Shown here piece after piece: positions 8,293 to 26,163 of a stretch of 64,000 nucleotides of DNA. The stretch spans positions 1,302,001-1,366,000 of the forward strand of contig NC_019792.1 in NCBI RefSeq assembly GCF_000230715.2, in the 5' to 3' direction. The position numbers were made by a program, and so were the translations under genes. Each line of letters starts with the position of its first letter. The first letter of the stretch is position 1. This stretch comes from Natronobacterium gregoryi SP2. Its GTDB lineage: Archaea; Halobacteriota; Halobacteria; Halobacteriales; Natrialbaceae. Under the pieces are notes generated by a model. That model worked only from the letters and a program-made list of their open reading frames with translations. It ran no database searches and was not told the DNA's origin.

Positions 8293-9611
8293 CCGCACCT
8301 CATTTCTACTGCCCGTTTTTCGACGGTTGACTGTGATCGAGTGGCGTTCGGTTCCGTTCGTTCGTCGCCGTCGACGATCCGCCACAACGTTGCTGTGTCA
8401 CCGATCACGAACACGTCGTCGTCAGACTCGAGGGTCGAGAGGTCCGGTTCGATCACCAGGGTCGGGTCTGTCCTTGCAACTGTCTCGGTCGAGTGACCGC
8501 CGTTTTCGTTCGTCCATCCGCCGAGAACGCGAACATCTTCGAGCGTGGCGTCGACGGCGTCCGAGGCGAGAGCGGTCCGGAGTCGACCCGCGGGCAGCGA
8601 ACGGACCGACTGGCCCGCACGTTCGAGGACGTCGAACGCGGAAACGTCGGCGGGTGACTCACCGGAGAGGGCCACGATCCGGACACAGTCACTCTCCAGA
8701 ACGACGCTGGCGTCGGGTGTCGAAACGGCGACGGTCACACGTCCCCGGCCGCCAGGTGTTTCGACGGCTGCCGGTCGACTCGATCGGGCGGACCGATCCT
8801 CGGCGACAGTCTCTCGAGTCGGTTCGTCGGTGGCATCGACATCGACGACTCGTCCTACGACCGCAACCGTCTCCGACTCGGGGTAGACGGCGACTTCGTC
8901 ACCCGGTGCGAGGCCGGTCGGCAGCAGTGCCCACACCGTGACAGTTCGACACCCGTCCGGAATCCGACTCGGGACGGCGTTCGACGGCGGTGCTGCAGCA
9001 ATAGTTGCACGGCCGCGTTCGTCGACCGAGACCGAAACCGCCGCCAGATCGTGAGTCGTTCGCAGACGAGCCTCGAGTCGCGACTCGAGGGCGGAAAGCG
9101 GCAGATCGGCTGGAAGACGCCACGTTCCCTCCTCGAGAGTTGTCTGCAGATCGGGCCCGAGCGGCGGGTGGCCGTCGATATCCCGGACCGCTCCCGCCGT
9201 GCGGATCGCTACCCAACCCGTGCTGTCGACGGCGTCGGTCGCCTCGGCCGAGAGCCCTCGTTCTCGTCGGACGGGACGTGCGACGTCGAACGGGAGGTCG
9301 TCGACCGCGGCTTTTGCCAGACTGTGAGCGTACAGTGCAAGCACGACCACGACGAAACACGTGACGAGGATCGAAAGCGCCGAGATGGCGATCGTGTCGT
9401 CGCTCGAGAAGGCGGCGGCGTCGGTCACCCCGACGGCGTACCCGTTGAGTCCAGCGAGGACGAGCGCAGCGATTGCGACGGCCACACGCGGGACGGCGTA
9501 ATCCAGGTGGGCGAGTCCCCCAGAGAGGCCCGCGAGGATGACGGCTGGGCCCACCCCAAGCAACAGTCCGAACGCGACGGCGACGACGATGGCGGTCGTG
9601 AGTTCGAACAT
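8289..9611 (-). CDS. membrane protein with TrkA-C domain, paralogue of the downstream gene
   Basis: A protein of about 440 residues from the ATG at 9611 (MFELTTAIVVAVAFGLLLGV). It has three hydrophobic helices in the first 110 residues, then a soluble region with two sandwich-like segments (GLAPGDEVAVYPESETVAVV and DLSTLESDDDVFVIGDT), each ending in the TrkA-C pattern. It starts one base after the stop of the pilin-like gene upstream and overlaps the next gene by four bases, so the three are probably one operon. A frame to 9800 would add Ser/Thr/Arg-rich sequence and was rejected. Confidence 0.7.
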   Translation of the reverse strand: MFELTTAIVVAVAFGLLLGVGPAVILAGLSGGLAHLDYAVPRVAVAIAALVLAGLNGYAVGVTDAAAFSSDDTIAISALSILVTCFVVVVLALYAHSLAKAAVDDLPFDVARPVRRERGLSAEATDAVDSTGWVAIRTAGAVRDIDGHPPLGPDLQTTLEEGTWRLPADLPLSALESRLEARLRTTHDLAAVSVSVDERGRATIAAAPPSNAVPSRIPDGCRTVTVWALLPTGLAPGDEVAVYPESETVAVVGRVVDVDATDEPTRETVAEDRSARSSRPAAVETPGGRGRVTVAVSTPDASVVLESDCVRIVALSGESPADVSAFDVLERAGQSVRSLPAGRLRTALASDAVDATLEDVRVLGGWTNENGGHSTETVARTDPTLVIEPDLSTLESDDDVFVIGDTATLWRIVDGDERTEPNATRSQSTVEKRAVEMRCG

Positions 9612-10206: not shown

Positions 10207-11274
10207 ATGAGTTTCGTACTCGGACGCGACACCGATCTCGAGAGTGGGCCGGCCGGTCGTCTCGGCACCTATCGGGCGCTGGATGGAAGTGACGGTGTGG
10301 CGCTGTATCTCGACCTAGACGAGCCACACGCGGTGCTGGTCGTGGGCAAGCGAGGGTACGGGAAGTCATACACGCTCGGAGTGATCGCAGAGACGCTCGC
10401 CCGGACCGGCGGACTGGCCCCCGTGATCGTCGATCCGATGGGCGCGTTTCGCACGCTCGCCGAGGCTGCCGACGGCGAACCGGTTCCCGCAGAGATCGTC
10501 GGCGAGCCGACCGTCTCACCGGCGACGCTCGATCCCCGATCGTGGTGTGAGCTGGTCGGCCTCGAGCCCGAGAGCGCCACTGGCGGACTGCTCTGGCAGG
10601 CTGCGAGTTCCGAGACGACGATCGACGACATGTGCGAGGCCATCGAAGCGGCGAACGCATCGCAAGCGGAGCGACGGGCGGCGATCAACCATCTCGAGCT
10701 CGCGCGGTCGTGGGAGGTCTTCGATCCCGACGGACTCTCGGCGGCCGATATCGCCGGTCCCGAGGTGACCGTTTTCGACGTCGCCGGACTCGACGACGCC
10801 CCGATGAACGCCGTTTGTCGAGCTATCGCGGAGACGCTATATCGCGCCCGCGTCACCGGGCGAATAGAGCGGCTCCCGTGGCTGTTGCTCGACGAAGCCC
10901 ACGCGTTCTTCGACGGGGTCGCCGAACCCGCACTCCGAACGATTCTCACGCGTGGCCGCGCGCCTGGCGTCACGCTCGTCGCGGCGACTCAGCGGCCAAG
11001 CGCCGTCCCGCCGGTCGGGATCTCCCAGTCCGACGTGCTCGTCGCCCACCGGCTGACCGCCGGCGACGACCTCGATGCACTCGAGTCTGCCCAGCCAACG
11101 TACGTCGACGAGTCGTTGGCGAATCGCTTGCCGGAACGGCCGGGCGAAGTCGTGATCGTCGACGACGCAACCGAAACTGTCCACGCTGCACGAATTCGGG
11201 AACGCGACACCCCACACGGAGGGGCGAGTCCGAGGGCGAGCGAGACCGCCGTCCGACCTGACACAGAGGTTTAA
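10207..11274 (+). CDS. HerA/VirB4-like ATPase
   Basis: A 355-residue P-loop ATPase of the HerA-FtsK superfamily. Walker A GKRGYGKS is at residues 47-54, an aspartate strand VIVDPMG follows (near 79), Walker B LPWLLLDEAHAFF is near 221-233, and TLVAATQRPSAVP near 254 is the conserved sensor stretch. No nuclease partner (NurA) is nearby. Its position directly before the pilus-type operon suggests a role there, perhaps powering or regulating assembly, although HerA-type DNA translocases are the best-known relatives. Confidence 0.75.
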   Translation: MSFVLGRDTDLESGPAGRLGTYRALDGSDGVALYLDLDEPHAVLVVGKRGYGKSYTLGVIAETLARTGGLAPVIVDPMGAFRTLAEAADGEPVPAEIVGEPTVSPATLDPRSWCELVGLEPESATGGLLWQAASSETTIDDMCEAIEAANASQAERRAAINHLELARSWEVFDPDGLSAADIAGPEVTVFDVAGLDDAPMNAVCRAIAETLYRARVTGRIERLPWLLLDEAHAFFDGVAEPALRTILTRGRAPGVTLVAATQRPSAVPPVGISQSDVLVAHRLTAGDDLDALESAQPTYVDESLANRLPERPGEVVIVDDATETVHAARIRERDTPHGGASPRASETAVRPDTEV

Positions 11275-11278
11275 GTAC
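11270..11278 (+). promoter_or_regulatory. TATA box for the pilus operon
   Basis: TTTAAGTAC, about 27 nt before the ATG at 11301, overlaps the stop region of the preceding gene. The spacing suggests a leaderless transcript for the operon starting at 11301. Confidence 0.55.
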
Positions 11279-11300
11279 GAACGGGCAGCGAAACCGGCCC

Positions 11301-11993
11301 ATGACCGACGTCGAGCGACTCGAAGACAGACTCGCTGCCGTCGAACGAGCGGTCGTCGACGGCGACGCGACGGTCACCGATCTCGCTGATCTCGAGTCGA
11401 CACGGACAGACCTCGCACGACTCGAGTCACGGCTCGAAGAGTTCGAACGCAGAATCGCCGACCTGGAGGGACGGACGGCCGCACTGGAGGGGTTCACTGG
11501 GGAGGTACGTGCCGTCAACGACGATGTCGAGCGACAGGCGGCGACGGCAGTCGCCACCGTCGATCGTCTCGAACAGCGCGTAGCGACGCTCGAGGAGGCG
11601 GTCGACGAGGGCACGCAGACGACATCTCTCGAGACGAAGCAGAGAGACGACGACACGGTAAACGTCGATGGCGATGCCGATAGCAATGAACGTGACGCCG
11701 AACGCGAGGAAACGAACAGAAGCGAGCAGTCGCCCGAGAGAGCAGCCGCGGACGTTCTCGAGAGAGTAAACGGCGAGGCTGCAGCGCCAGACGAGGACGG
11801 AAACAACCGAGAGGCCGACGGCGACGACCGGCTCGAACAGGCAGTAATGGCGGCAGAGCAGCGGTCGGTGAATCAGTCCCTCGAACAGTCGAGAGCGACC
11901 GACGACAGGGCCGATCGAGAGAAAGACCGGGACGAAAAGACGGAAAGAGGCGAGAAGTCCGGCGTGCTCGAGACGCTCCGATCGAGACTATGA
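11301..11993 (+). CDS. coiled-coil protein (DUF7310-like)
   Basis: A 230-residue soluble protein with no membrane segment. Residues 1-110 show heptad repeats (VERLEDRLAAVERAV, LARLESRLEEFERRIADLEG, VDRLEQRVATLEEAV) that predict a long coiled coil. The remainder is a disordered, highly acidic linker rich in Asp, Glu and Arg. I believe it belongs to a haloarchaeal DUF (DUF7310) found next to pilus ATPases, but that name is from memory. It overlaps the next gene by four bases (ATGA). A scaffold or regulator of the secretion ATPase is inference. Confidence 0.7.
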   Translation: MTDVERLEDRLAAVERAVVDGDATVTDLADLESTRTDLARLESRLEEFERRIADLEGRTAALEGFTGEVRAVNDDVERQAATAVATVDRLEQRVATLEEAVDEGTQTTSLETKQRDDDTVNVDGDADSNERDAEREETNRSEQSPERAAADVLERVNGEAAAPDEDGNNREADGDDRLEQAVMAAEQRSVNQSLEQSRATDDRADREKDRDEKTERGEKSGVLETLRSRL

Positions 11994-12451
11994 TCCGGTA
12001 CGTCCTCGCCGTTCTCCTCACGGTCGCGCTCGCTGTCCTGTCGGTTCCTGCGATCGACCACGCCGCGACAGTGAGTACGGAACGTCAACTGCAGGGTGAT
12101 CTCGCGTCGGTCGACGACACAGCAGTGTCGCTGTACGAGAACGAGGAGGTGACGCCGGACGGCGTTCCAGCACCGAAGCGGACGGTAGCAGTTACCTTCC
12201 CTGCCGATTCGCTGACATCGACCTCGGTAGAGTACGTCCGAATCGAGCGGCTCCACGAGACGGGAAGTCTCGCGACCTTCGCAGCGAGAGAACGTGGCGA
12301 ACGGCACCGTCTCATCGATGCACCGATCGTCTACGCCGATCCGCACCGAAACGAGACGGTCGAACTCGGCGGCAGTGGCGAAACGAGACCGCTGACGCTC
12401 ACGCTAGAACGAGACGATCGGGGCGAACCCGTCGTCGTCGCGAGCCAATGA
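11990..12451 (+). CDS. small membrane-anchored protein (DUF7311-like)
   Basis: A 153-residue protein. The N-terminal hydrophobic segment IRYVLAVLLTVALAVLSVPA acts as a signal or anchor, followed by ATVSTERQLQGDLASVDDTA, reminiscent of pilin-type N-termini. An extracytoplasmic beta-rich domain follows. It overlaps both neighbours by four bases (ATGA), so it is translationally coupled within the pilus-like operon. I recall the family as a haloarchaeal DUF with this context; its function is unknown. Confidence 0.65.
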   Translation: MIRYVLAVLLTVALAVLSVPAIDHAATVSTERQLQGDLASVDDTAVSLYENEEVTPDGVPAPKRTVAVTFPADSLTSTSVEYVRIERLHETGSLATFAARERGERHRLIDAPIVYADPHRNETVELGGSGETRPLTLTLERDDRGEPVVVASQ

Positions 12452-14373
12452 TCCGGACGCGACGTGACCGACTCGAGTCGATCCTCGAGCATATTGGGCT
12501 CGAAGATGTGTTCGAGTCGGCCGATGGCGACCGCCCGTGCCCGTGTACGGCTCGCTTCGAAGACCGGACGCTGATCGTCGACGCAGACGACTGTGATGGA
12601 GGCGGCGACCTGACCGACGCCGAGCCGTGTCGCCGAACCGTCGTCGAGACGCTCGTCGAGCGTGGAGCCAAGCAGTTGATGGTTCGATCGAACGGGCTCG
12701 AGTATCGGTACGACGACCGCGGCGTCGCACTGTTTGCTGCAGCCGGCCGATTCCTCGAGTTACTCGGCGACCGTCACGAACGACTGGCCGAAACGACCGC
12801 CACCGATCCGCTCGCAGTCGCCGACGAACTTCGCTCCCGCGTCGACCGGATCGCCGAACTCGGGGCCGAATCCGGACTGCTCGCCGCCGCAGACGGCATC
12901 GAGAGCTACGCCGACGTCGAACCCGCGGTCGGTCTCGAGATCGGTCACTACGTCGTCGACGGGAGTATCGACTGCGCCAGTCTACGGGACATCCGGTCGC
13001 TCGAGACTGGCAGCGAGGCGCGAATCTACACCAGACCCGACGGTGTCCCGCTTTATGCACTCGACGTGGTCGACCTTTCGCTGTCTGCCGACGATCGGTC
13101 GCGGCTACTCGAAGGGTATGAAGCGATCGCAGCGGGCACCATCGAGGGGGAACGGACCGCATCGCGAGCGATCGAACGCGTTACCGACGGGCCGGCCGAT
13201 CCACGGTTGAGTCCGATCCTCGAGAAACACACGGCTGGATACGGCGTTCTCGAGGATCTCTTTGCCGATCCGGAGATCACCGATGTCTACGCGACCTCAC
13301 CCGTCGCTGCCAACCCACTACGAGCCGTCGTCGACGGCGAGGCGATGGCGACGAACGTCCGCCTGACCGAGGATGGCGCTCGAGCGGTCGGCTCTCGCGT
13401 TCGGCGAACCAGCGGCCGAGCGTTCTCACGCGCGACACCGACGGTCGACGCGACGGCCGGCCTCGAGAACGGAACGGAACTTCGGATCGCTGGCGTCACC
13501 GATCCGGTTGCCGACGGAACCGCCTTCGCGTTCCGAGAGCAGGCCGACGACCGGTTCACGCTACCCGCGCTCGTCGCGAACGGGACGATGCCGGCCGACG
13601 CGGCAGCCGTGCTCTCGATCGCTATCGAGCAAAACGCGGCCGCGCTCATCGCAGGAACTCGCGGTGCCGGGAAGACGACGCTGCTCGGAACCCTCCTGTA
13701 CGAGCTCCCGCCGAGCGTTCGAACCGTCGTGATCGAAGACACACCGGAGCTACCGGTCGATCCGCTGCAAGCGGTCGGCAGAGACGTCCAGGCACTTCGG
13801 ACGGGAACCGGCGACGGACCCGAAATCACGCCCGCAAACGCACTCAGGACTGCCCTCCGACTCGGTGATGGCGCACTCGTCGTCGGCGAGATCCGCGGCG
13901 AGGAAGCGAGCGTCCTCTACGAGGCAATGCGCGTCGGCGCGAACGCAAACGCCGTTCTGGGAACGATCCACGGTGACGGTGCAGACGACGTCTACGAACG
14001 GGTCGTCTCGGACCTGGGCGTCGAACCCTCCTCGTTCGGCGCGACCGACATGGTGGTCACGGTTCAGGCCTATCGGACCGTCAACGGACGAAAGCGACGA
14101 CTCGCACGGATCGAAGAAGTCGTCGGCAGCGGCGACGAAGTCCGGTTCGAACCGCTGTACGCCATCGAAGGCGACAGCGCCCGATCGACCGGTCGGATCG
14201 ACCGTGGGGAAAGCCGACTCGTCGAACGGCTGACCGGCCCCGACACCTCGTACACCGACATCCGAGACGCGATCGACGACCGACGTGACCTACTCGCCTC
14301 GCTCGCCGCCGACGGCCGCACGACGCCGAACGCAGTCGCGTCGGCCTACGCGAAGGAGACTCGAGTGAGATGA
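12448..14373 (+). CDS. pilB: type IV pilus/secretion assembly ATPase (PilB/GspE family)
   Basis: A 641-residue secretion ATPase. Walker A GTRGAGKTT is at residues 403-411, the Asp box VVIEDTPELP follows, and Walker B LVVGEIRGEEA is near 477-487. The His box AVLGTIHGDGADDVYERVVS follows. An N-terminal module of about 90 residues holds four cysteines (C31, C33, C49, C61) that could bind zinc. It hydrolyses ATP at the cytoplasmic side to power pilus or secretion assembly with the PilC protein encoded next, whose start overlaps this stop by four bases. One of several pilB paralogues expected in haloarchaea, so the exact number is not assigned. Confidence 0.9.
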   Translation: MIRTRRDRLESILEHIGLEDVFESADGDRPCPCTARFEDRTLIVDADDCDGGGDLTDAEPCRRTVVETLVERGAKQLMVRSNGLEYRYDDRGVALFAAAGRFLELLGDRHERLAETTATDPLAVADELRSRVDRIAELGAESGLLAAADGIESYADVEPAVGLEIGHYVVDGSIDCASLRDIRSLETGSEARIYTRPDGVPLYALDVVDLSLSADDRSRLLEGYEAIAAGTIEGERTASRAIERVTDGPADPRLSPILEKHTAGYGVLEDLFADPEITDVYATSPVAANPLRAVVDGEAMATNVRLTEDGARAVGSRVRRTSGRAFSRATPTVDATAGLENGTELRIAGVTDPVADGTAFAFREQADDRFTLPALVANGTMPADAAAVLSIAIEQNAAALIAGTRGAGKTTLLGTLLYELPPSVRTVVIEDTPELPVDPLQAVGRDVQALRTGTGDGPEITPANALRTALRLGDGALVVGEIRGEEASVLYEAMRVGANANAVLGTIHGDGADDVYERVVSDLGVEPSSFGATDMVVTVQAYRTVNGRKRRLARIEEVVGSGDEVRFEPLYAIEGDSARSTGRIDRGESRLVERLTGPDTSYTDIRDAIDDRRDLLASLAADGRTTPNAVASAYAKETRVR

Positions 14374-16100
14374 GAACCGACACCGACTCGACGCTCGTCT
14401 CGCTTGCCCGCGGGCTGGCGAAGCTGTACCCCTGGCCGGTCGAACCAAGCGCGGAGCTCGTCGAGTCACTGTCCTTTCTCGAGTCAGCGCTCGACCCGGA
14501 GACGGTCGTTCGTGCAGGCTACGGGGCCGGTCTCATCTCGGTCGTCCCGACGAGCGGGCTCACCGCGACGTCGATGCCCGTCACCGTCCTCGCCTGTTTC
14601 CTGTTCGGCATTCCGCTTGCGACCGTCCACGTCGTCCACGCGCTCCCGAAGCTCCTTGCAGCGTTCGCACGAACCGAAGCGCTGGGGGATGCCCCCAGTC
14701 TCGTCGGTCGAGTCGTGCTGCGAATGCAAGTCCAACCCTCACTCGAGAGTGCGATCCGATTTGGGGCGGACACCGGTCACGGACCGCTGTCGGCGAGTCT
14801 CGCCGCCCACGTCGCCCGGTCGATGGGAACCGCCGAGACGGGATTGCTGTCGTTCGCCGACGAGTGGGCCGACCGGTTTCCGGCCCTCCGGCGGGCGAGT
14901 CACCTGCTCGCGACCGCCCAAGACGCGCCAGCGGCCGAACGAACGCGGACGCTGGATCGAGCACTGGGGGCGATGCTCGACGGCACTCGCGAGCAGATGG
15001 CGACGTTTACCGCCACGATCCGTGGGCCGACGAGTGCGCTGTTCGCGTTCGGCGTCATGCTACCGCTCGCGCTCGTGGCGCTCGTTCCTGCCGTGCCGAT
15101 GGTCGGGATTTCGGTCAATATATGGATGGTGGTCCTGCTGTACAACGTCGTACTCCCCGTCGTTCTCGTCGCGGCGAGCCTCTGGTTGCTCGTCCGACGA
15201 CCCGTCGCTTTCCCGCCACCGTCGATCGATCGTGACCACCCCGACCTCCCCGATCGACTCTGGCCACGGTTCGTGGTCGGAATCGCCGCCGCCGCCGTCG
15301 TCTACGTCGGTACGAGGCGAGTAGGCTACGAACATCTCGCACCAGTCGCCGCAATCGGACTCGGCGCTGGCGTGGGACTGCTGGCCGTCTACAGCCCGAT
15401 TCTCTCGGTTCGACACCACGTCCGTGACGTCGAATCACACCTCACTGACGCGCTTTACCTCGTCGGACGGCAGGTCGCCGAGGGGGAGTCCGTCGAGTCA
15501 GCGATCGCACTCGCAGGCAAACGCATCCCCGCGGAAACCGGCGACGTCTTCGAGGCTGCAGCCTCCCTCCAGCAACGGCTCCACGTCGGCGTCGAAGAAG
15601 CGTTTCTCGGCGAGTACGGCGCACTCCAGAACGTACCGAGCCCTCGAGCGCGAGGGACGGCGTCGCTGCTTGCGATCGCCACCGACGAAGGTCAACCTGC
15701 GGGACGAGCGATCGTTGCGATGGCGGATCACCTGGAGGAACTCGAAGAACTCGAGCGCAAAACACAGCGCGACCTCGAGCAGGTGACCGGAACGCTCGAC
15801 AACACGGCCGCCTACTTCGGGCCGCTCGTCGCCGGCACGACGGTCGGACTCGCAGACATGATGGGTGGAATCGACGTGGCGGCGACGACCGAGTCGGCGG
15901 CGTTCCCGACCGACTCGCTCGCGCTCTCGATTGGCGCGTTCGTTCTCGTGCTCTGTCTCGTATTGATCCCGCTCTCCTATGCCCTTCGATACGGCCTCGA
16001 CCGGGCGCTGTTCGGGTACCACGTCGGTCGAGCACTGCTGTCGGCGACGACAGTATACGTACTCACGGTCGTTGCGATCGACCTCCTGCTCTCGCTCTGA
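14370..16100 (+). CDS. pilC: type II secretion F-family membrane protein (PilC/TadC-like)
   Basis: A 576-residue membrane protein and the platform partner of the PilB ATPase. It has two T2SSF-like halves: the first near residues 100-230 (VGRVVLRMQVQPSLESAIRF) and the second near 345-470 (HLTDALYLVGRQVAEGESVE, RGTASLLAIATDEGQPAGRA). Hydrophobic helices lie near residues 50-90, 225-275, 300-345, 480-500 and at the C-terminus. The duplicated layout and length match archaeal PilC proteins. It ends the ATGA-linked run; the next gene has its own TATA box. Confidence 0.88.
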   Translation: MRTDTDSTLVSLARGLAKLYPWPVEPSAELVESLSFLESALDPETVVRAGYGAGLISVVPTSGLTATSMPVTVLACFLFGIPLATVHVVHALPKLLAAFARTEALGDAPSLVGRVVLRMQVQPSLESAIRFGADTGHGPLSASLAAHVARSMGTAETGLLSFADEWADRFPALRRASHLLATAQDAPAAERTRTLDRALGAMLDGTREQMATFTATIRGPTSALFAFGVMLPLALVALVPAVPMVGISVNIWMVVLLYNVVLPVVLVAASLWLLVRRPVAFPPPSIDRDHPDLPDRLWPRFVVGIAAAAVVYVGTRRVGYEHLAPVAAIGLGAGVGLLAVYSPILSVRHHVRDVESHLTDALYLVGRQVAEGESVESAIALAGKRIPAETGDVFEAAASLQQRLHVGVEEAFLGEYGALQNVPSPRARGTASLLAIATDEGQPAGRAIVAMADHLEELEELERKTQRDLEQVTGTLDNTAAYFGPLVAGTTVGLADMMGGIDVAATTESAAFPTDSLALSIGAFVLVLCLVLIPLSYALRYGLDRALFGYHVGRALLSATTVYVLTVVAIDLLLSL

Positions 16101-16112
16101 TCCGCGCCGAGG

Positions 16113-16121
16113 TTTAAATAC
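16113..16121 (+). promoter_or_regulatory. TATA box for the second pilin-like gene set
   Basis: TTTAAATAC about 26 nt before the ATG at 16143, with the purine-rich element CCGAGG just upstream. It suggests a separate, leaderless transcript for the accessory genes 16143-21421. Confidence 0.6.
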
Positions 16122-16142
16122 GAACGTCGGGCCACTGGATGC

Positions 16143-17039
16143 ATGGATCTCGAGACGCCCGCTGACGCGTGGTACGTCTGGCTGGCAGTGAGCCTCGTCA
16201 GCCTCGCGATGGCCGGTATCGCGATCGGACTGCCGAGCGGTCCGCCGCCGGACGCGGACAGAGCTGCAAACGCCATCGAACGAGTGAGTGGGATAGAAAC
16301 CTATCAGGCGACGACGAGCTACGAACACGACGCCGACACAGTCAAGATCGACGGTAAAACCGTCGCGATGCGCAACGACCACGGAACAGCACACTCGAGT
16401 ATCGCTTACGGGCAGGTCGTTCCCGTAATGGGCCACGACCGACTCGAGAACGTCACTCACGGGACGAAGATAGAAGACGAGTACGCTACCGAGATCGAAG
16501 CTCCCGGGGAGACCGGAATCGGCGCTTTCCTCGAGGACGTACGGACGGCAAACGAGGAAAACAGTGGGGCGTGGCAACGAACGGACGGTGAGATTCGGGC
16601 CACGACGGTTCGAACGATGCCCACACCGGCCGTCTCGGCGTCGGTGACGACCGAACAGTTGCCGGGCCTCCAGACCGACGAACTCGTCTTCGAGTACGAG
16701 ACGAACCGGGCAGTCGACTTCTCCTTCCAGGCGACGGGAGCGGACGGAATGGAAGCTGACACCGCCACAGCGTCCGAGAGCGGGACCGACACAGTAACGG
16801 TCGAACACACCGAAATCGAGGGGAACACGCTCCGGTTCCCGCTCACCGTCGAAATCTGGACGACCGGAACGCGCGTCTGTCAGGAAACGATCGAGAGTGA
16901 CGGTGCCGGCGAAACGGTCGAACTCTGTGACCGGGACAAGGGAGCTATCGAGATCGAGGCGGACGCCGACGAACGCGGCTACCTCGAACGATCACAATAC
17001 GGGACGGAGGTGTACCATGTCACGCTCGTCGACGCATAG
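16143..17039 (+). CDS. single-pass extracytoplasmic protein of the pilus-like locus
   Basis: A 298-residue protein with an N-terminal helix (WYVWLAVSLVSLAMAGIAIG, residues about 11-30) and a soluble domain that starts with DADRAANAIERVSGIETYQA. The domain is beta-rich and acidic, with one Cys pair near the end (VCQETIES, VELCDRDKG). I believe it is a haloarchaeal DUF tied to pilB/pilC loci (DUF7283 or similar, from memory). It overlaps the next gene by 23 bases. Function unknown; a minor pilin or assembly factor is inference. Confidence 0.7.
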   Translation: MDLETPADAWYVWLAVSLVSLAMAGIAIGLPSGPPPDADRAANAIERVSGIETYQATTSYEHDADTVKIDGKTVAMRNDHGTAHSSIAYGQVVPVMGHDRLENVTHGTKIEDEYATEIEAPGETGIGAFLEDVRTANEENSGAWQRTDGEIRATTVRTMPTPAVSASVTTEQLPGLQTDELVFEYETNRAVDFSFQATGADGMEADTATASESGTDTVTVEHTEIEGNTLRFPLTVEIWTTGTRVCQETIESDGAGETVELCDRDKGAIEIEADADERGYLERSQYGTEVYHVTLVDA

Positions 17040-17490
17040 GGGCCAGACCGAACCACTCGCCGCTCTCGTTGCCGTCGCGGTGATCGGGGTCGCGGTCGGA
17101 CTCTACGGCGGCTACCTCACCGGCACACTCTCGGAGACGACCGACCGCACGTCCGCTGATGTCGCACTCGAGCGCGTCTGGCAGGACATCTCGAGATCGG
17201 GTGTGTTCGCCTCGGCCGACGACAGCGAGCTCGACCCGATAGCGGATCGAATCGAGCTGGCGTCGCTTCCCGAAGGAGAGAACGTCCGAGTAGCGGTCAC
17301 GACCGTACAGGAAGGCGAAGAGCAACTGGTCACCGAGGCGCGATTCGACGCGGACGGAACGGCCCTCGAACCTGACACACTCGAGGCTCCCCCGTCCCAC
17401 GCCGGCGTCGCCAAACGGCCGATTCCAGTCGCACTCGAGCCAGGAGCCGTCCGCGGCGGAACCCTCAGTGTGGAGGTGTGGTCGCCGTGA
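17017..17490 (+). CDS. pilin-like minor subunit
   Basis: A 157-residue protein from the ATG at 17017. The N-terminus SSTHRGQTEPLAALVAVAVI with following GVAVGLYGGY has the haloarchaeal prepilin pattern: a basic-Gly-Gln motif immediately before the hydrophobic helix, so PibD-type prepilin peptidase processing after RG is likely. The remainder is a small acidic beta domain. The start overlaps the previous gene and a GTGA overlap joins it to the next, so translation is coupled. Its role as minor pilin or pseudopilin is inference from this signature and context. Confidence 0.72.
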   Translation: MSRSSTHRGQTEPLAALVAVAVIGVAVGLYGGYLTGTLSETTDRTSADVALERVWQDISRSGVFASADDSELDPIADRIELASLPEGENVRVAVTTVQEGEEQLVTEARFDADGTALEPDTLEAPPSHAGVAKRPIPVALEPGAVRGGTLSVEVWSP

Positions 17491-18548
17491 ACGAACGCGG
17501 CGTTAGCACCGTTCTCGACGTGTCACTTGCGCTCTTGCTGGTCAGCGCGAGCGTCCTGGTCCTTGGGCTCTATCTACAAGACGGCGACGACGGACTCGAT
17601 GACCTGCAGGCCGACCGAACCGCGGAAACGCTCGCTGCGACGACGATGTCAGTCCAGTACGACCTAAGCGATGTCGAGAACAGCGACCGATTCGCCCCGC
17701 CCGAGTTGACATCGGCGAACACGTACGACCGGGCCGAGTACGGGCCGTCAACCGGCCTGCTCGCCGATGCAGCCGTGACGAACGTACGGATCGACGACGA
17801 TCGACTGCTCGCCTACGGCGACGAGTACGAAGACGCCGTCGACGCCTCGATCGGCAGCGCACTCGTCGGTGCGAACCACCACACCTACACCGTCGCCGTC
17901 TGGGAACCCTACGAGAACGCGACCGTTCGAGGAGAAGCAACCGCCGGCGACCGATCCCCACCCGACGAAGACGTCGGCAGCGTCACGATGACCGTCTCGA
18001 GCGGGATGGCCGGTCTCGATGACGAGACGATCAGAAACGCTTACGAAGACGGCGGCGACCGCGAGGAGGGAATCGCGTTGGTGGCCGAACTGATCGCCGA
18101 GCAACTCGTCGAGAGCTACTTCGACCCCGAAGCCTCACAGCACGCCCTCGAGAGCCAGGGCATCGAACGGTCGCTGAAAGTCTACCATTACCAGGAAACG
18201 GCAGCCGCAGCCAACGTCGAGTTCGACGACCCCGGCGACGAGGAGACCCCACTCAGCAGGACGGGAGCCAACGCGACCACCGCGAACGAACGCCTCGTCT
18301 ACGGCAACGAAGAGCAGGACGTACTCCTCGAGGACCTCTGGGAGTGGATCACCGACGACGGAGACGCACCGAGCGGACTCGCTGCAGTGATCGCCGACGA
18401 TATCAGGAACGGGGCGCTCGTGGACGAGATCGATGCCATCGACGCCGAGTACGACAGCGAGGCTGCGGACGAACGCGTGGGTGAACTGCTCGTCGAATCG
18501 ATCACACTCGACGAACTGACGATCACGGTCCAGACCTGGGAGCCATGA
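17487..18548 (+). CDS. pilin-like anchored protein
   Basis: A 353-residue protein. I prefer the GTG at 17487: it forms a GTGA overlap with the preceding stop and has a strong ribosome binding site, GGAGGTG at 17472-17478, 8 nt upstream; GTG at 17478 is the alternative. The N-terminus NERGVSTVLDVSLALLLVSA followed by a hydrophobic run resembles a class III prepilin signal (ERG before the helix). The long ectodomain is acidic, with LIAEQLVESYFDPEASQHAL in its middle. Its family name is uncertain (DUF7284-like). It overlaps the following gene by four bases. Confidence 0.7.
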   Translation: MNERGVSTVLDVSLALLLVSASVLVLGLYLQDGDDGLDDLQADRTAETLAATTMSVQYDLSDVENSDRFAPPELTSANTYDRAEYGPSTGLLADAAVTNVRIDDDRLLAYGDEYEDAVDASIGSALVGANHHTYTVAVWEPYENATVRGEATAGDRSPPDEDVGSVTMTVSSGMAGLDDETIRNAYEDGGDREEGIALVAELIAEQLVESYFDPEASQHALESQGIERSLKVYHYQETAAAANVEFDDPGDEETPLSRTGANATTANERLVYGNEEQDVLLEDLWEWITDDGDAPSGLAAVIADDIRNGALVDEIDAIDAEYDSEAADERVGELLVESITLDELTITVQTWEP

Positions 18549-21421
18549 ACGGGAGCCGCCCACGAACCGTCTCAGTCACTCTCGACGATCGGGCACGCGT
18601 CCCGTTCGCGATCATCGGCGTCTTGCTCCTCCTGAGCAGCGTCACCGTCGTCGGCGTCCTCGAGTCGCGAAATACACCCCAGGCCGACGTCGACCCGATG
18701 CTCGCGATCGATCGAACGGAGCCGCTCGTCCAGTCCGAACTCCGCGAGGCCGTCCTCCGTGCGACCGACGAGGCCGCGAGAGCACCGCTGTCGACGACTG
18801 CCGACACCCCCGTCGGACACGCGATCGACGACCCAAGCGAGAGCGAGTTCGAACGCTACCTGGAACTGCTAATATATATCGAAGCCGAAAAATCGCTGCC
18901 GACCGCTGGCGAAAAGATACGCGGCGACGTCGAGACGACCGTCGAACTCGAGCCCGTCGACTGGAACGACCGAGAGAGCATCGAGACAGCGATCGATCGC
19001 ATCGACCTCGACGTCGGCGACGGCACACTCGAGGCGACGCTCGACTCCGTCTCGATCCACCTCGAGGGGCCGAACACGCAACTCCGACAGGAACGCGAGA
19101 TCACCGTCACCGTAGGAACGACGCTGTTCGAGCTTCGAGAGCGGACGCAGGAGTTCGAGGAGCAACTCGAGACCGGATTCATGGAAGCGGACGGATACGA
19201 AGGATTCAGCCGAACACTGGCCACCCGGCTGTACGCACTCACCTGGGCGAAAACCTATTACGACCGACTCGACGGCGATCCCAGCGACCGAGCGTTCGAG
19301 AACATCACGCCAAACGACCACACGGAAGTGCTGGCAAACGACGCAGTCTTTGCGGTTCAGGAGGACGCGTTCGGCGAGGGAGCCGCCGATCCCTACGAAG
19401 ACCGCGTGATGAGCGGCGCAGCAGCCTGTCTCGCCATTGATCTGGGCGACGACATCGTCGAAACCGATCTCGAGGATCTCGAAACCCTCTGTGAAAGCGA
19501 GTACCTGTTCGGCGACGCCGACGGCGACCTCGAAGATCCACCGACAGTTCAGGAACTGCTATTGTGGCTACTCGAGGACCACGTGGAAGGAAAGCAGGAA
19601 CTCGAGGTGCACGCGCATCCATTCGCCGAGGCTGCCTTCGCCGAAACGACGGCGTTCGGGATGAGCGATATGGAAAGCGAATTCAACGAGACGCTTGCAG
19701 AGACGGAGCGGTTCGACGACGAATACCTAGACGTGCATTACCAGGATGAGTTAGGTAATACCGAAGAAGTTGATGTCTTTAATAACATTTTGAGCAATAT
19801 AGAAAGAGTTAGTGATGGCGCAGAGCGGCGCGAAGAATTGACTGACAGCAGATCGAATATCGCTCATGCTAATATAGAGACAGACGAAAATACCATACAA
19901 CACGGCTCCCTACCCCGTGCCGACTACACCGAAGGACCGACCGGAAGCGAGAATCATTCCTACAAAGGATCCAGACACCACGTTGTTTCGAGCGGCGGGG
20001 CAGACGTTACGATTTCCGAGCGTGGCGACAGCTCCAGCAGTCTTGAACGAGACCTCGCCGACATCGACATTGAGTTTCAGAACACGGTTCAGGAACGAGC
20101 AAAGTGGGTCGGACACGAGAACGCCTCCAACGAAACAGTGTGGTCCGACGAAACTCGGGTCGAATATACGGCTTCGTTCACCGTTTCAGGTTCTTTCGCG
20201 ACCGACTCGAACGTCGATCGGTCGAAAGACATCGAGACGGCACTCGAAGAAGGAGGGGCAGCTGGTCCGAAGACGGCAAATAACTTCGTCGACGCGCCAG
20301 ACAAAGCAATTGAACAACTGTTCGGAGCCAAATCCGAGAACAGAATCGAGAGCAGAATCGAGTCACAATCACGAAGCATTCTCAGTGAAAACGATTTCGA
20401 AGAAGCGATCGACTACGAGACAAGCGGTGAGATAGACCTCGAGAGCGACGACATCGACGACTGGCTGGAAGACGAACTGGCAGCGACGCATCTGACAGTC
20501 GTGACCCAAGTCGAACCGCTCGAAGTCGATCTGTTCGAGATGATCGAGGGTGAAAGTCCGATTTACGAGTTCGAGTCGCGGGTCGAGCAACTGGAAGACG
20601 AACTCGTCTACGAAGGAGTCGATGGGGAGTACGAGAACGCACCCGACATGACACGAGTCGAACTCCGGCAGCGATACTTCGACAACCTCTACGCCTGGAT
20701 CGAAACGATGGGCGAAATCCACGACGACTCGAACGACGCAGCCGGAAGTATGGTCGACGATCTCTTCGAGGGTCCAAACGGCGTGCTCGAAGAAAGCGTC
20801 GGGTTCACCCAGGATGTAATAGCGGACTCAGAACACGTTCTCGACGGTGGATCGAATCGAAAACTGGCAAAAGCCGACGATTCCTCTCTGAAAGAGGATG
20901 TCTATATTACCGTCGACGGAGCACCGACGTACTTGCAACTCGAGCCCGTCGATCGTGAAGAAGTCCCTGCTGTCCGACCAGAAGGGGTGGGACCAGTGAA
21001 TCCGGAGAACACGACCCACGCTCCATTAGCGTCGAAGTACGAAAACGAAGTCGGATTCCCGGGTGCTCCGGTCATCCCCTGGCCGAAGTTCTTTTTCCTG
21101 CAACTCGACGCCTGGCAAGTCGAAGTCGAAGGCGAGTACGCACGATTCAAGACAAGAACAACCAGTGGCGATGGCTCGAGTACAGACTCGACGACCTACG
21201 TTAGAGAAAATAAAGACGTGTATCTCGAGGCAGAAGCCAACATAGAAGTCGAAGCAGGGTCAGTCGAAGCCATCGAGTTTAAAAACTCGGTGCCAGTCGT
21301 TGCATTTGTTCCCAGTCCGAAGGTTCTGACTCGAGGGTCACCTGGGATCGGAGATATTGGCAAGAGTGAAAATAAGACAGAAACATGGAATGGAGTAGGC
21401 CCCAATCTTAAGGGTGAATAG
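18545..21421 (+). CDS. large anchored surface protein of the pilus-like locus (DUF7286-like)
   Basis: A 958-residue protein. An N-terminal helix (RVPFAIIGVLLLLSSVTVVG, residues about 19-38) anchors a very acidic ectodomain. Residues 1-395 have the usual high-GC coding style; from about base 19735 the DNA turns sharply AT-rich for 170 bp (GNTEEVDVFNNILSNIERVS) and stays looser to the end. It has long helical segments (SRIESQSRS, FESRVEQLEDELVYEG) that may form coiled coils. No enzymatic motif is seen. It is the last gene of the overlapping set. A length-variable tip or surface protein is inference. Confidence 0.7.
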   Translation: MNGSRPRTVSVTLDDRARVPFAIIGVLLLLSSVTVVGVLESRNTPQADVDPMLAIDRTEPLVQSELREAVLRATDEAARAPLSTTADTPVGHAIDDPSESEFERYLELLIYIEAEKSLPTAGEKIRGDVETTVELEPVDWNDRESIETAIDRIDLDVGDGTLEATLDSVSIHLEGPNTQLRQEREITVTVGTTLFELRERTQEFEEQLETGFMEADGYEGFSRTLATRLYALTWAKTYYDRLDGDPSDRAFENITPNDHTEVLANDAVFAVQEDAFGEGAADPYEDRVMSGAAACLAIDLGDDIVETDLEDLETLCESEYLFGDADGDLEDPPTVQELLLWLLEDHVEGKQELEVHAHPFAEAAFAETTAFGMSDMESEFNETLAETERFDDEYLDVHYQDELGNTEEVDVFNNILSNIERVSDGAERREELTDSRSNIAHANIETDENTIQHGSLPRADYTEGPTGSENHSYKGSRHHVVSSGGADVTISERGDSSSSLERDLADIDIEFQNTVQERAKWVGHENASNETVWSDETRVEYTASFTVSGSFATDSNVDRSKDIETALEEGGAAGPKTANNFVDAPDKAIEQLFGAKSENRIESRIESQSRSILSENDFEEAIDYETSGEIDLESDDIDDWLEDELAATHLTVVTQVEPLEVDLFEMIEGESPIYEFESRVEQLEDELVYEGVDGEYENAPDMTRVELRQRYFDNLYAWIETMGEIHDDSNDAAGSMVDDLFEGPNGVLEESVGFTQDVIADSEHVLDGGSNRKLAKADDSSLKEDVYITVDGAPTYLQLEPVDREEVPAVRPEGVGPVNPENTTHAPLASKYENEVGFPGAPVIPWPKFFFLQLDAWQVEVEGEYARFKTRTTSGDGSSTDSTTYVRENKDVYLEAEANIEVEAGSVEAIEFKNSVPVVAFVPSPKVLTRGSPGIGDIGKSENKTETWNGVGPNLKGE

Positions 21422-21431
21422 TCGAAACAGT

Positions 21432-22655
21432 CTAAACCGATTTGAGTTTATGGAGCGTATTATTTGAGGTCGTGACATACAACGCTCCGTTTACGATTGC
21501 AGGGGGGGCCTGCATTGCGTGATTAGTGTCAGTATGTGGACTGCCGGTATCCGAACCAAACTCGTGTGAGCACAACTCTTCTCCTGTTTTGGCCTTGACT
21601 ACGTAGAGAAACCGATGCACAGCTAAGTACAGTTTCTCATCAGTAACGATCGGCTTTACGTCTGGTGTTGGGCCAACATCTGCGTTCCACTCCTTACTCC
21701 CGTCAATTGAATCAAGCGCAATAGCTCGATCACCGTCACCAAAGTAAACGAACTCATCTGCGACCGAGGGACTCGAGGCGACCTCCGTCACATCAGTGTA
21801 CTTCCACTCGAGGTCGCCCGATTCGGTATTGATAGCGTAGAAATTTCCGTCGACGTCACCGATATAGACCAACCCGTTCGCGACGGCCGGGCTGATGTGA
21901 TGGAAAATCTCACCGGCTTCGTTTTCGAACTCCCACACCTGCTCACCGGCCTCGAGATCGATCGCACCGAGTCGATCCTCGTAGCCGACGTATGCTATCC
22001 CGTCGGCGATAGCAGGTGCCTCGGAGACGCCCATCTCGAACGGATCGGGAAGCAGGTCGATCACTTGCTCGAGAGAACCGGTTTCCAGGTCGAACCGCCA
22101 GATGTACTCGTCGTCCGTCACGATACCCGTTGCTTCGTCGACGACGAGTGGATAGTACGGGTTCGAATTCGTTCCGTCCTCGCGCCAGCGGACGGCACCG
22201 GTTTCGGCGTCGATCGACAGCAGTTCGCGGCTACCGGAGACGTAGATGTTGCCGTCGGCAAATGCGGGAGTTCGTCGGGCAGACGTGCCCAGATCAACCG
22301 ACCACTCTTTATTTCCGCTTTCGGCATCGATTGCGTAGAAGTGTTCGTCCTGAGAGCCGACGTACAGGATGCCGTCGACGATGATCGGCGTTGCTGCAAG
22401 AGAGTCTTCAGTTTCGAACGTCCACTCGACATCGATGTCTTCCGTGGGTCCGCGTACGTTCGCTTGGTGACCAGTATTTGCGAGATCGACGCCGTACATT
22501 CGCCATCCAGCATCGAACGACTCGTCAGTACTCGGAACGGGGCCGTTTTCGCGGTCAGTTTCGTCACTCGAACAACCAGCAAGTGTGGAAACGCCAGCAG
22601 TCGCGGCAACGCAGGTGGTCAGCCACTGGCGGCGTGTGCATTGACTTCGTTGCAT
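21432..22655 (-). CDS. Tat-exported lipoprotein with PQQ-type beta-propeller repeats
   Basis: A 407-residue protein. The N-terminus TRRQWLTTCVAATAGVSTLA followed by GC is a twin-arginine signal with a lipobox, so it should be lipid-anchored outside the membrane. At least six propeller blades are visible by their repeated ends, for example GILYVGSQDEHFYAIDAESG, GLVYIGDVDGNFYAINTESG and EFVYFGDGDRAIALDSIDGS. Blade residues for PQQ binding are not evident, so this is the BamB-like, cofactor-free type. It is convergent with the 958-aa surface protein and may assist its assembly, which is inference. Confidence 0.85.
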   Translation of the reverse strand: MQRSQCTRRQWLTTCVAATAGVSTLAGCSSDETDRENGPVPSTDESFDAGWRMYGVDLANTGHQANVRGPTEDIDVEWTFETEDSLAATPIIVDGILYVGSQDEHFYAIDAESGNKEWSVDLGTSARRTPAFADGNIYVSGSRELLSIDAETGAVRWREDGTNSNPYYPLVVDEATGIVTDDEYIWRFDLETGSLEQVIDLLPDPFEMGVSEAPAIADGIAYVGYEDRLGAIDLEAGEQVWEFENEAGEIFHHISPAVANGLVYIGDVDGNFYAINTESGDLEWKYTDVTEVASSPSVADEFVYFGDGDRAIALDSIDGSKEWNADVGPTPDVKPIVTDEKLYLAVHRFLYVVKAKTGEELCSHEFGSDTGSPHTDTNHAMQAPPAIVNGALYVTTSNNTLHKLKSV

Positions 22656-22693
22656 ACAGTATTCGCCACGTGAATTTCACCCCACTCCGACTG

Positions 22694-22703
22694 TATTTAT
22701 AAA
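22694..22703 (-). promoter_or_regulatory. AT-rich divergent promoter core
   Basis: TATTTATAAA lies in a 40-bp AT-rich patch about 40 nt upstream of the lipoprotein start on the minus strand. A short leader of about 15 nt would result. The same patch may serve the plus-strand ATPase gene. Confidence 0.4.
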
Positions 22704-22814
22704 TTTTGGTTATTTGTAGTAGTTATGTGATGGGCTCGGAAACGAAGACAGAGCGGCGTGCACAACCCTACCGCAAACTGCACGTTCAAAAGGGAAGACG
22801 CAACCAAGGTCGGC

Positions 22815-24122
22815 ATGCTCGCCATCGCTGGCTCGAAAGGCGGTTGTGGAAAGACGACGATGACGATCGGCCTTGCCGACGCATTCGCACGAATGGGGAC
22901 ACCGGCGATTGCAGTCGACGCGGACCGACAACTGCCGAACCTGCACGTCGTCGCAGCCGTCGATCGAAAGCCGACGATCGCCGACCTCGAGAAGGCGACC
23001 GACGTCGACGATGTCGTCCACAGTCGACCAGGAACGGACGACGTCGGCGTACTTCCTGCGACTGACGCCACCAAGGTCGATCTCGAAGCAGCAATCGATC
23101 GACTCCGACGCTGCCCAGAACGGGTTCTGCTAGATTGCCCTTCCGGGGCAGGACCCGACGTGATCGAATCACTCGAGTACGCAGACAGAGTCGTCGTCGT
23201 GGCGACGAACACCGATCGTGGACTGCGCGGCGCGGAAACGACGATCGATGTCGCTCGCCGGCTCGGAGTCCCCGTCGCAGGCGTTATCATCAACCGAAGC
23301 AACGGAGTGACAGAGACACTCGAGTCGAGACTCGAGGCCCCAGTCCTAGGAACGATTCCAGAACACGACGCGCCATTGACAGGCACCCTTCCTCGAGATG
23401 CCTTCGACGACGTTGCGGGTCGATTGACACTCGGCGAATCTAGCGTCGAGAAACGCCGCGACGACGAGAGTCGTCTTGCGGTCGGTAACCCCGACATCGA
23501 TCATGCTCTCCGCGGTGGGGTCCCGCCAGGGACGACGATTGCACTGACTGCCGACGCTGCCAGTCAGTCGGAACAACTCCTCTACGAGACGACGGCAACC
23601 CGCGGAACGCTCTATCTCACGACTGATCGAACACCAAACTCCGTCAAAGACGCGATCGAATCAGCCGTGGTTCGAACCGGAAACCCGACCGTCCGGCGGC
23701 TCCCAGCGGACGATCCGTTCGGACATGCTACACAACTGATCGACGAACTCCCAGAAGGTGCGAATCTAATCGTCGACTCGACGAACACCCTCGAGCGAAG
23801 GAGCCACGGCGCGTATCTCGAATTTCTGAACTCGGTCATCAAGCGAATGCGTGAGACACACGGGATCGCGATGTTTCACTGTCTAAACGGCTCGTCCGGC
23901 AAGAACCGAATGGTAACCCGACACCTCGTCGACGCGATTTTCAATCTGCGGACGATCACGACACGTGGTTCAAACGGAATCACACACCGACTGACAGTGC
24001 CAAAGTTCCGCCCGGACGGACGACTGACGAAAACGATCGAGCTAAAGCACACGCCCAGTTCGACCGCGCTGGAAGCCAAAACGCAGCCAGCGGCCGAAAC
24101 AGACGATGCACTAGAACGCTAA
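22815..24122 (+). CDS. ParA/MinD-like ATPase fused to a KaiC/RecA-like domain
   Basis: A 435-residue protein with two nucleotide-binding folds. Residues 1-210 are a MinD/ParA ATPase with deviant Walker A SKGGCGKTT and VLLDCPSGAGPDVI as Walker B. Residues from about 228 (NPDIDHALRGGVPPGTTIAL) follow the KaiC/Rad55 pattern with Walker B ANLIVDSTN, but the second P-loop is degenerate (TADAASQSE). I chose the ATG at 22815; a GTG at 22758 adds 19 residues. Its stop overlaps the stop of the convergent MinD-like gene. Positioning of a surface machine is inference. Confidence 0.8.
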   Translation: MLAIAGSKGGCGKTTMTIGLADAFARMGTPAIAVDADRQLPNLHVVAAVDRKPTIADLEKATDVDDVVHSRPGTDDVGVLPATDATKVDLEAAIDRLRRCPERVLLDCPSGAGPDVIESLEYADRVVVVATNTDRGLRGAETTIDVARRLGVPVAGVIINRSNGVTETLESRLEAPVLGTIPEHDAPLTGTLPRDAFDDVAGRLTLGESSVEKRRDDESRLAVGNPDIDHALRGGVPPGTTIALTADAASQSEQLLYETTATRGTLYLTTDRTPNSVKDAIESAVVRTGNPTVRRLPADDPFGHATQLIDELPEGANLIVDSTNTLERRSHGAYLEFLNSVIKRMRETHGIAMFHCLNGSSGKNRMVTRHLVDAIFNLRTITTRGSNGITHRLTVPKFRPDGRLTKTIELKHTPSSTALEAKTQPAAETDDALER

Positions 24123-24793
24123 CACCCGATTCCGCTAATCCGACGAGCAATTTTCGCGAACGAATCCGTTGCCGACGACGACGGAGCGACATCCCGAACT
24201 GGTTTTCCACGTTCGAGAGCAGCAGCGATCGTCGGTTGCGTCGAGAGCGTCGCAACCGGTGCACCGAAGCTCGCTTCGATCCGGTTTACAGCGGTCTCCG
24301 GAACACCATCTCTCGAGACCCGGTTGAGAACGACAGTTCCCACGGGCGTTTCGAGGTCCGAGGCAAGTTCCTCCGTTCGAATCGCGTCGACCACTGCCGC
24401 CTGATCGAGCGTCGTCACGAGCACGGCAACTGTTGCACTGGAGAGTTGGTGCCCAACGTCGCGTGCGAGCCCTGCCGGACAATCGATGACGACGCGACCA
24501 TACTCCCGCTCCAGGACCCGCAAGACAGCCGGGAGCCTCGAGAGGTCGACGGCACGAGCGCCGGCGAGCGTTCGACCACTCGGGAGTACCCTAATCGAGT
24601 CTCGACCGTCGACCGCTGCCACTGGAGAAACCCGCCCTGCAAGAACATCGTGAATCGAAGGTCCGTCCCCAACCGGAACGTCGCCCGTCGCAAAATCACC
24701 GTCGACGAGCACTGCCTCGAGCTCGCGGGCGAGATTCACCGCTACGGTAGTCTTGCCAACCCCGCCTTTCCCTCCGCTAACTGCAACGATCAT
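24119..24793 (-). CDS. MinD/ParA-like ATPase
   Basis: A 224-residue ATPase with the deviant Walker A GGKGGVGKTT at residues 7-16, switch region LVDGDFATGDVP and Walker B YGRVVIDCPAGLARD. It lacks an obvious C-terminal membrane-targeting amphipathic helix. The start ATG at 24793 overlaps the stop of the upstream small gene by four bases. It is convergent with the ParA/KaiC fusion, and the two stop codons overlap. MinD-family proteins place cell structures (in Haloferax, archaella and chemosensory arrays), so a role with the neighbouring pilus genes is a reasonable inference. Confidence 0.85.
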   Translation of the reverse strand: MIVAVSGGKGGVGKTTVAVNLARELEAVLVDGDFATGDVPVGDGPSIHDVLAGRVSPVAAVDGRDSIRVLPSGRTLAGARAVDLSRLPAVLRVLEREYGRVVIDCPAGLARDVGHQLSSATVAVLVTTLDQAAVVDAIRTEELASDLETPVGTVVLNRVSRDGVPETAVNRIEASFGAPVATLSTQPTIAAALERGKPVRDVAPSSSATDSFAKIARRISGIGC

Positions 24794-25158
24794 TCCACAT
24801 CTCGTTCGAGAACGGTTCCAGGTGGTGCCCAATCCTCGAGTGCAGCAAGCCTTCGTTTTGGCTCTGCAAGTTCGCTACCCGAGGCTCGTGTCGCAGAGAT
24901 GCATTCGAGTGGCTGCTCCGGCGGAGCAACGGAAGTCGCAAACCCAACACCTCGAGTACGCCCTGGATTAACCACCCCAGACCACATCTCGCCGACCCAT
25001 TCGGTTGCCGTCGCGGTTCCGGGCCGTGGCACCCAGATCGGGCCGTCGATACGTGGCTCGAGGCAAATCAACTGCGATGTCGTTCGCTCGTTCGTTACCG
25101 TCGCAGTAACGAACGTCACCCCGTAACGGCGGTCCGTTTCCGTCTCGAGACCGATCAT
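24790..25158 (-). CDS. small protein coupled to the MinD-like ATPase (DUF7857-like)
   Basis: A 122-residue protein from the ATG at 25158 (MIGLETETDRRYGVTFVTAT). It has a beta-sandwich feel (VTFVTATVTNERTTSQLICL then RIDGPIWVPR) and ends in a charged tail. No membrane helix. ATGA overlap with the MinD-like gene shows coupling. I have a weak memory of a haloarchaeal DUF7857 with this context. A longer frame to 25272 adds basic residues and was rejected. Confidence 0.6.
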   Translation of the reverse strand: MIGLETETDRRYGVTFVTATVTNERTTSQLICLEPRIDGPIWVPRPGTATATEWVGEMWSGVVNPGRTRGVGFATSVAPPEQPLECISATRASGSELAEPKRRLAALEDWAPPGTVLERDVE

Positions 25159-25690: not shown

Positions 25691-26163
25691 TCAGCCCGCG
25701 GCCGGCGCGTATGCTTCTGGCACACCTGTTCCGTTCATCTCGATCTCCCAACTCCGCTCTAGCTCTTCCTCTAATGCATGTCTGATCCAGTCAGAGAACG
25801 TCTTGAACGTGAATTCCTCGGGCAGGTCGCGCCCGCCCCGCTGGGGGCGGGCGACGACCGCCCATCGAAGCACGAGCCAGAGGTTCTCCAACAGGAATCC
25901 AACCAGGACGAACGCGAAGCGGATGATTGGGTCTTGTGTCGTCGTTACCACTCGTGCTTGGCGAAATACACGGTAGCTCGTTTCGATCGCTGACCGTTTC
26001 CGATAGAGCCGTTCGACTTGTTTCGGCGTGCGATCGGCCAGATCGCACGCCACATAGCCTCGAACGACTTCGCCGCTTTTCCCGCGATCTCCGGCGTGAT
26101 ATGATACAGCGACCGCGAGCGGGAATTCCAGTTCCCGCTCGCGGCCTTTGTACATCCGATAGG
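25691..26163 (-). pseudogene. ISH3-family transposase, C-terminal fragment
   Basis: The frame reads YRKRSAIETSYRVFRQARVV then TTTQDPIIRFAFVLVGFLLE and RWAVVARPQRGGR, the C-terminal DDE (YxxR...E) region of ISH3-type transposases (IS4-like). The N-terminal half, including the first two catalytic aspartates, is missing. The coding match stops at about 26163, exactly where the left end of an IS1595-type element begins, so it was truncated by that insertion. Several hairpins (see findings) interrupt the remaining sequence without breaking the frame. Confidence 0.8.

Follow-up and report, generated by a model that had tools for sequence, protein, structure and literature searches.

Gene content of the pilus locus

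The window analysed here is a stretch of 64,000 nucleotides from the 3.79-Mb haloarchaeal chromosome of Natronobacterium gregoryi SP2 (NC_019792.1, positions 1,302,001 to 1,366,000). It contains a type IV pilus locus built around the assembly ATPase PilB and the platform protein PilC, together with a HerA-type ATPase, a MinD ATPase, and a MinD domain fused to a KaiC-like domain. In this work, we found that these ATPases are co-inherited with the pilus core among related genomes, also where their genes lie far from it. An earlier note on this DNA, made from the letters alone, had described a self-contained pilus-like locus with HerA, a coiled-coil protein, PilB, PilC, a 958-aa protein, a propeller lipoprotein, a ParA/KaiC fusion, and a MinD-like protein; all of these features are present. 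The gene calls listed below were checked against Pfam, in which the DUF families of the locus carry no functional annotation.

10207..11274 (+): HerA/FtsK-type ATPase, 355 aa; Pfam DUF87, 35 bits, above the Pfam cut-off
11301..11993 (+): coiled-coil protein DUF7310, opening the core operon; Pfam, 94 bits
11990..12451 (+): DUF7311, small protein with an N-terminal transmembrane (TM) anchor (MIRYVLAVLL); Pfam, 160 bits
12448..14373 (+): PilB2-type assembly ATPase; T2SSE, 68.9 bits
14370..16100 (+): PilC/TadC-type membrane platform protein, 576 aa; T2SSF marginal, position after PilB
16143..17039 (+): DUF7283, TM-anchored outer protein; Pfam, 173 bits
~17017..17490 (+): DUF7285, smallest prepilin-like protein, start moved from GTG 16897; Pfam, 100 bits
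17478..18548 (+): DUF7284, prepilin-like protein; Pfam, 275 bits
18545..21421 (+): DUF7286, large prepilin-like outer protein, 958 aa; Pfam, 374 bits
21432..22655 (-): propeller lipoprotein of the twin-arginine translocation type with pyrroloquinoline quinone-type repeats; passenger
22758..24122 (+): MinD domain fused to DUF7125; Pfam, fold search, alignment, and co-occurrence
24119..~24793 (-): MinD ATPase, very probable ortholog of Haloferax volcanii MinD1 (HVO_0225) by synteny
24790..25155 (-): DUF7857, upstream of MinD, the two genes overlapping; Pfam, 67 bits
7174..9611 (-): membrane protein (8289-9611) and TrkA-C domain protein (7174-8385), both on the minus strand; accessory neighbours

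The core genes lie on one strand in the order DUF7310-DUF7311-PilB-PilC-DUF7283-DUF7285-DUF7284-DUF7286 and are predicted to form a type IV pilus operon specific to Halobacteria. The comparison drew on 40 genomes from within the window's family and 20 from other families. The full order is kept at 16 of the 18 PilB-bearing loci of other families and at 20/40 in the window's family; in the remaining loci the pilin-like part lies elsewhere, is inverted, or falls past the end of the fetched stretch. The closest solved structures to PilB are GspE2 of A. fulgidus, CpaF, and FlaI, and its N-terminal extension carries four conserved cysteines (31, 33, 49, and 61). PilC directly follows PilB on the 3' side in every annotated locus, and its T2SSF scores are marginal (10/16 orthologs).

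The several prepilin-like N-termini proposed in the earlier note held for three proteins, whose motifs are kept across orthologs: DUF7285 (R[GA]|QTEPLAALVAV), DUF7284 (R[GA]|[VI]STV.DV.LALLL), and DUF7286 (R[AG]|RVPFALIGVLLL; DDRA/GR|VPFALIGVLLL). These conserved N-termini mark them as predicted class III (prepilin) signal proteins, and DUF7285 is a candidate filament subunit. DUF7311 and DUF7283 have an ordinary, conserved N-terminal TM segment and no prepilin site. An AlphaFold2 model of DUF7286 (mean predicted local distance difference test score of 76) found no relative in the PDB, the best E-value being 0.17. As the earlier note had stated, the locus contains no abundant PilA-type pilin gene. 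The predicted machine has PilB as its motor and PilC as its platform, three prepilin-like proteins of which one is very large, a pair of TM-anchored helpers, and a coiled-coil protein. The proposal of a pilus-type machine other than the usual adhesion pilus is supported.

Split operons were observed in a few genomes (G168, G197, and G289; loci L122 and L116), in which DUF7311, with HerA or the pilin-like genes, is separated from pilB by tens to hundreds of kb or sits on a different contig, and all parts are retained. At the PilB loci of three genera (g5, g18, and g28; L053, L059, L060, L061, L070, L071, L074, L085, and L086), DUF7283-7286 were not found nearby.

Relationship to the published pilB2/C2 regulon

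The neighbours of the core in other families include a divergent cetZ gene upstream of DUF7310 (8/16 loci, confirmed by Pfam), and downstream DUF5791 (15/16 loci), putatively arCOG04674, and an epimerase (12/16, confirmed by Pfam). In the window itself, cetZ and the epimerase do not adjoin the core. The synteny given for the pilB2/C2 regulon (arCOG01818) in PMC9856176 comprises cetZ2, arCOG04674, and the arCOG03095 epimerase. By this shared synteny with cetZ2 and the epimerase, the core operon is identified as the pilB2/C2 regulon, and so it is not new, being already known as a predicted, if little-studied, pilus. In that 2023 paper, the regulon is known from Haloferacales and Halobacteriales and is essentially missing from Natrialbales, with a single species as the exception; in our data, 61 of the 101 genomes scored in the window's family, to which Natrinema, Halostagnicola, and Natronorubrum belong, have the PilB ortholog. 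No tie of HerA or MinD to the regulon appears in the part of PMC9856176 available to us, and our literature search found no publication linking HerA or MinD1 to PilB2, nor any report of a HerA-type ATPase linked to a type IV pilus.

The subclade of this system is not settled. The 4F-type halobacterial system of Makarova 2016 (PMC4858521) has a coiled-coil protein, with which DUF7310 probably corresponds (arCOG07564), and a cysteine-bearing ATPase. The present system resembles 4F in the cysteine-containing N-terminal extension of the ATPase, the unique coiled-coil protein, the large surface protein, and the tubulin-family gene nearby. It differs in that PMC4858521 expects a PilA-family major pilin, mostly encoded by stand-alone genes and absent from this locus, and does not mention HerA or MinD-KaiC for 4F. 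The label 4F fits by the cysteine-bearing N-terminus and the coiled-coil gene alone, whereas H. volcanii PilB2 was assigned to 4C in PMC6491452.

Co-inheritance of HerA and MinD with the pilus core

Presence or absence was scored for the window's family with 101 genomes and for the order with 243, some of these genomes being incomplete, with thresholds of at least 329 bits for PilB orthologs and at least 360 bits for HerA orthologs; genus labels were used rather than a species tree, and presence sets and linkage coordinates were transcribed by hand from the search outputs. In the family, 60 genomes have both PilB and HerA, one has PilB only, none has HerA only, and 40 have neither. For the order, where either DUF7311 or PilB counted as the core, 150 genomes have both the core and HerA, nine the core only, seven HerA only, and 77 neither (phi 0.855). 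The seven HerA-only genomes include G005, with a 136-residue stretch, several with weak scores, and one that is 62% complete. All 40 pilB-less genomes of the family retain other PilB-like ATPases of ~30% identity.

The stand-alone MinD follows the same pattern (59 both, two PilB only, three MinD only, and 37 neither in the family; 150/9/6/78 with the core in the order after removal of weak, paralog-level hits). For the MinD-DUF7125 fusion and PilB, the corresponding counts in the family are 53/8/2/38. Thus, HerA, MinD1 with DUF7857, and, mainly in the window's family, the MinD-KaiC fusion are co-inherited with the core, in strong agreement with the proposal that the pilus has HerA and MinD partners of its own.

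A phylogenetic artefact, in which a few deep losses common to relatives create an apparent co-occurrence, has to be considered because the genomes are related, only genus labels were used, and some absences fall in incomplete metagenome-assembled genomes. We regard it as very improbable. Within the family, ten genera include genomes with pilB as well as genomes without it, and HerA follows pilB in each of these genera: an intact HerA was never found where pilB is missing, the single remnant being the 136-residue stretch in G005. The product of the within-genus chances is ~5e-10 by our own arithmetic, which ignores relatedness inside genera. Furthermore, partial remnants point to recent joint decay: G005 has the partial HerA, an interrupted TrkA-C gene, and a retained MinD, and G066 has an interrupted fusion gene and also keeps MinD. 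Both look like decay in progress.

The claim that the locus is self-contained could not be upheld. We checked linkage, defined as HerA within 10 kb of PilB, in 73 genomes outside the window's family and 60 inside. HerA is linked in 5/73 and 39/60 of these, respectively; in the other 68/73 and 21/60, it is over 10 kb away from pilB or sits on a separate contig, the 21 including 13 different-contig cases of which some may be draft-assembly breaks. With HerA unlinked in so large a share of the genomes outside the family, neither joint deletion nor hitch-hiking can account for the co-occurrence there. HerA, MinD, and the MinD-KaiC fusion co-occur with pilB even when unlinked, and the new part of this work is this co-inheritance of ATPases without linkage. 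Gene order, which the earlier note suggested examining across Halobacteria, is conserved for the core, whereas HerA and MinD are often distant and the propeller gene is restricted to one genus.

The places where the unlinked genes reside suggest another explanation. In most families, HerA has housekeeping neighbours (PCMT and GAPDH, or RNA polymerase genes) and MinD1 sits between mcm and TFB, as expected if both served general cell biology without any physical connection to the pilus, and disappeared alongside it because all belong to a single lifestyle (surface-attached, mating, or biofilm). We consider this improbable, since the window's family and some other families have all of the genes clustered next to the pilus operon, and since presence and absence match within a few percent across ten genera, which is rare for lifestyle genes.

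MinD is adjoined by DUF7857 in all 19 loci examined from other families, most of which also have mcm, DUF7856, TFIIB, and DUF7858 around the pair. In H. volcanii, mcm is HVO_0220 (PMC3972481) and MinD1 is HVO_0225 (PMC11588486). Given these positions and the shared synteny (mcm...DUF7857-MinD-TFB), the stand-alone MinD is very probably the ortholog of MinD1. The function of MinD1 is undescribed, and a quadruple minD mutant resembles minD2/4 with no added motility defect (PMC11621097), which leaves MinD1 free for another cargo. In the fusion protein, the MinD half, recognized by sequence, has an intact deviant Walker A motif (KGGCGKT), and DUF7125 has a KaiC fold but no longer a Walker A motif in the aligned orthologs, giving an active-type MinD joined to a pseudo-KaiC; taken as a whole, the fusion matched KaiC double domains in a fold search. 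Outside the family, most matches to the fusion hold stop codons between the domains and are apparently two separate genes. Some MinD1 neighbourhoods in other families (L146:3715-4362 and L137:1731-2585) also contain DUF7504 and a second ParA-like ATPase, possibly the counterparts of the fused protein.

The other neighbours show different patterns. Strong matches to the propeller lipoprotein were found in four genomes of the window's genus only, with weak matches in two of another, and it was rejected as a component of the system; it is the one flanking gene of the earlier proposal found to be independent of pilB/pilC. The membrane/TrkA-C pair (7174-9611), which falls outside the interval of the earlier note, is present next to HerA or MinD at many of the family's pilus loci. 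Because paralogous copies occur elsewhere, including in pilB-less genomes, we treat the pair as a neighbour rather than core, one that might let the machine respond to a ligand or to potassium. A plus-strand open reading frame at 24236-25126 was dismissed as an antisense shadow of MinD/DUF7857 without any family match. At the edge of the locus, there is an IS1595-type transposase (26356-27240), and beside it an apparent remnant of another transposase (25691-26332, minus strand).

Possible roles of the machine and their implications

We tentatively favour a PilB2/C2 pilus machine with dedicated MinD and HerA ATPases that are not necessarily encoded nearby, a reading that is possible rather than probable as a whole. 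PilB would act through PilC to polymerise a short pseudopilus-like filament from the DUF7285/7284/7286 proteins. Placing or counting the machines would fall to MinD1 and the MinD-KaiC fusion, by analogy with MinD4 for archaella and TadZ/FlhG in bacteria, and a role of MinD in setting the position of the machine is plausible. HerA, as a hexameric ATPase, would sit at the base as an additional motor and move a polymer, with DNA as the likeliest one. The result would be a DNA-handling pilus with a logic comparable to the crenarchaeal Ced/Ted systems.

Consistent with an ATPase of this kind, the Walker A (GKRGYGKS), Walker B (LLLDEAH), and RGRAPGV..ATQRPS motifs are strictly conserved among 42 HerA orthologs, and a profile search matched solved HerA-type ATPases, which are hexameric, over the central core only. 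Other members of the HerA clade are known as DNA translocators. DNA is favoured as the substrate because HerA relatives move DNA and because genes for HerA and MinD/ParA are also present at the loci for Ted DNA import in Thermoproteales (PMC9905601); HerA would thus probably act on DNA. In both Ced/Ted and the present system, a surface appendage is combined with HerA/VirB4-type and MinD/ParA-type ATPases (PMC9905601). In contrast, Ced/Ted derive from type IV secretion systems with VirB2-like pilins and VirB6-like channels, whereas the PilB2 core is derived from type IV pili (PilB/PilC), and no family of VirB6/CedA-like channels or VirB2-like pilins was found among the locus proteins. The likeness to Ced/Ted is therefore put forward solely as a hypothesis of similar working. 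The more specific idea, a haloarchaeal DNA-exchange or uptake apparatus in which the pilus and a HerA translocase lacking the HAS barrel are positioned by MinD1 and evolved independently of Ced/Ted, is doubtful.

The bacterial Tad/Cpa pilus (TadZ/CpaE) similarly has a CpaF-like ATPase, a TadC-like platform, and a MinD-family localisation protein. The PilB2 system differs in having no secretin and no Flp pilin, and in its unlinked MinD. We know of no HerA counterpart in Tad.

Several observations weigh against the favoured machine. Canonical HerA binds NurA through its N-terminal HAS barrel; the HerA of this locus starts ~45 residues ahead of Walker A without this barrel, and is thus a HerA-core ATPase rather than a canonical HerA helicase. 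The locus encodes no DNA channel (ComEC/CedA/VirB6-like), nuclease, or relaxase, and the tie between HerA and the pilus rests on co-inheritance and gene neighbourhood, not on physical contact. Our literature search found no PilB2 phenotype. Finally, the core is kept in genus g55 (G140, G147, G161, and G229) with HerA and strong MinD1 absent, and in genus g72 with HerA absent at the threshold used, so that HerA cannot be strictly essential to the core.

The strongest competing explanation is that HerA handles protein: it would be a second motor such as a retraction or disassembly ATPase in place of PilT, and the machine an adhesion or secretion pilus. The loss of the HAS barrel suits such a motor, as does the tracking by HerA of one specific pilB though every genome of the family holds other pilB-like ATPases. 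PilT, which archaea do not have, is like the secretion ATPases a member of the FtsK-HerA superfamily (PMC4858521). However, a Sulfolobus adhesion pilus is reported to retract without a PilT homolog (PMC11178785), and a HerA partner is thus not required for retraction in general. Together with the DNA-translocating habit of the clade, this weighs against the protein-directed role, which we consider rather unlikely. An antiphage defence system was also rejected: PADLOC returned generic HerA and mad8 similarity for the ATPases only and nothing for the other genes.

H. volcanii is a genetic model in which we found no PilB2 phenotype in the literature and in which MinD1 is functionally undescribed (PMC11621097). 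The near-perfect co-inheritance gives PilB2, MinD1, and HerA each a predicted partner and makes their roles directly testable, and genus g55 provides a natural test of what HerA and MinD1 add to the core. Should HerA act on DNA, these findings would bear on the way DNA is exchanged among haloarchaea; should its target be the pilus, they would bear on the control of archaeal pili without PilT.

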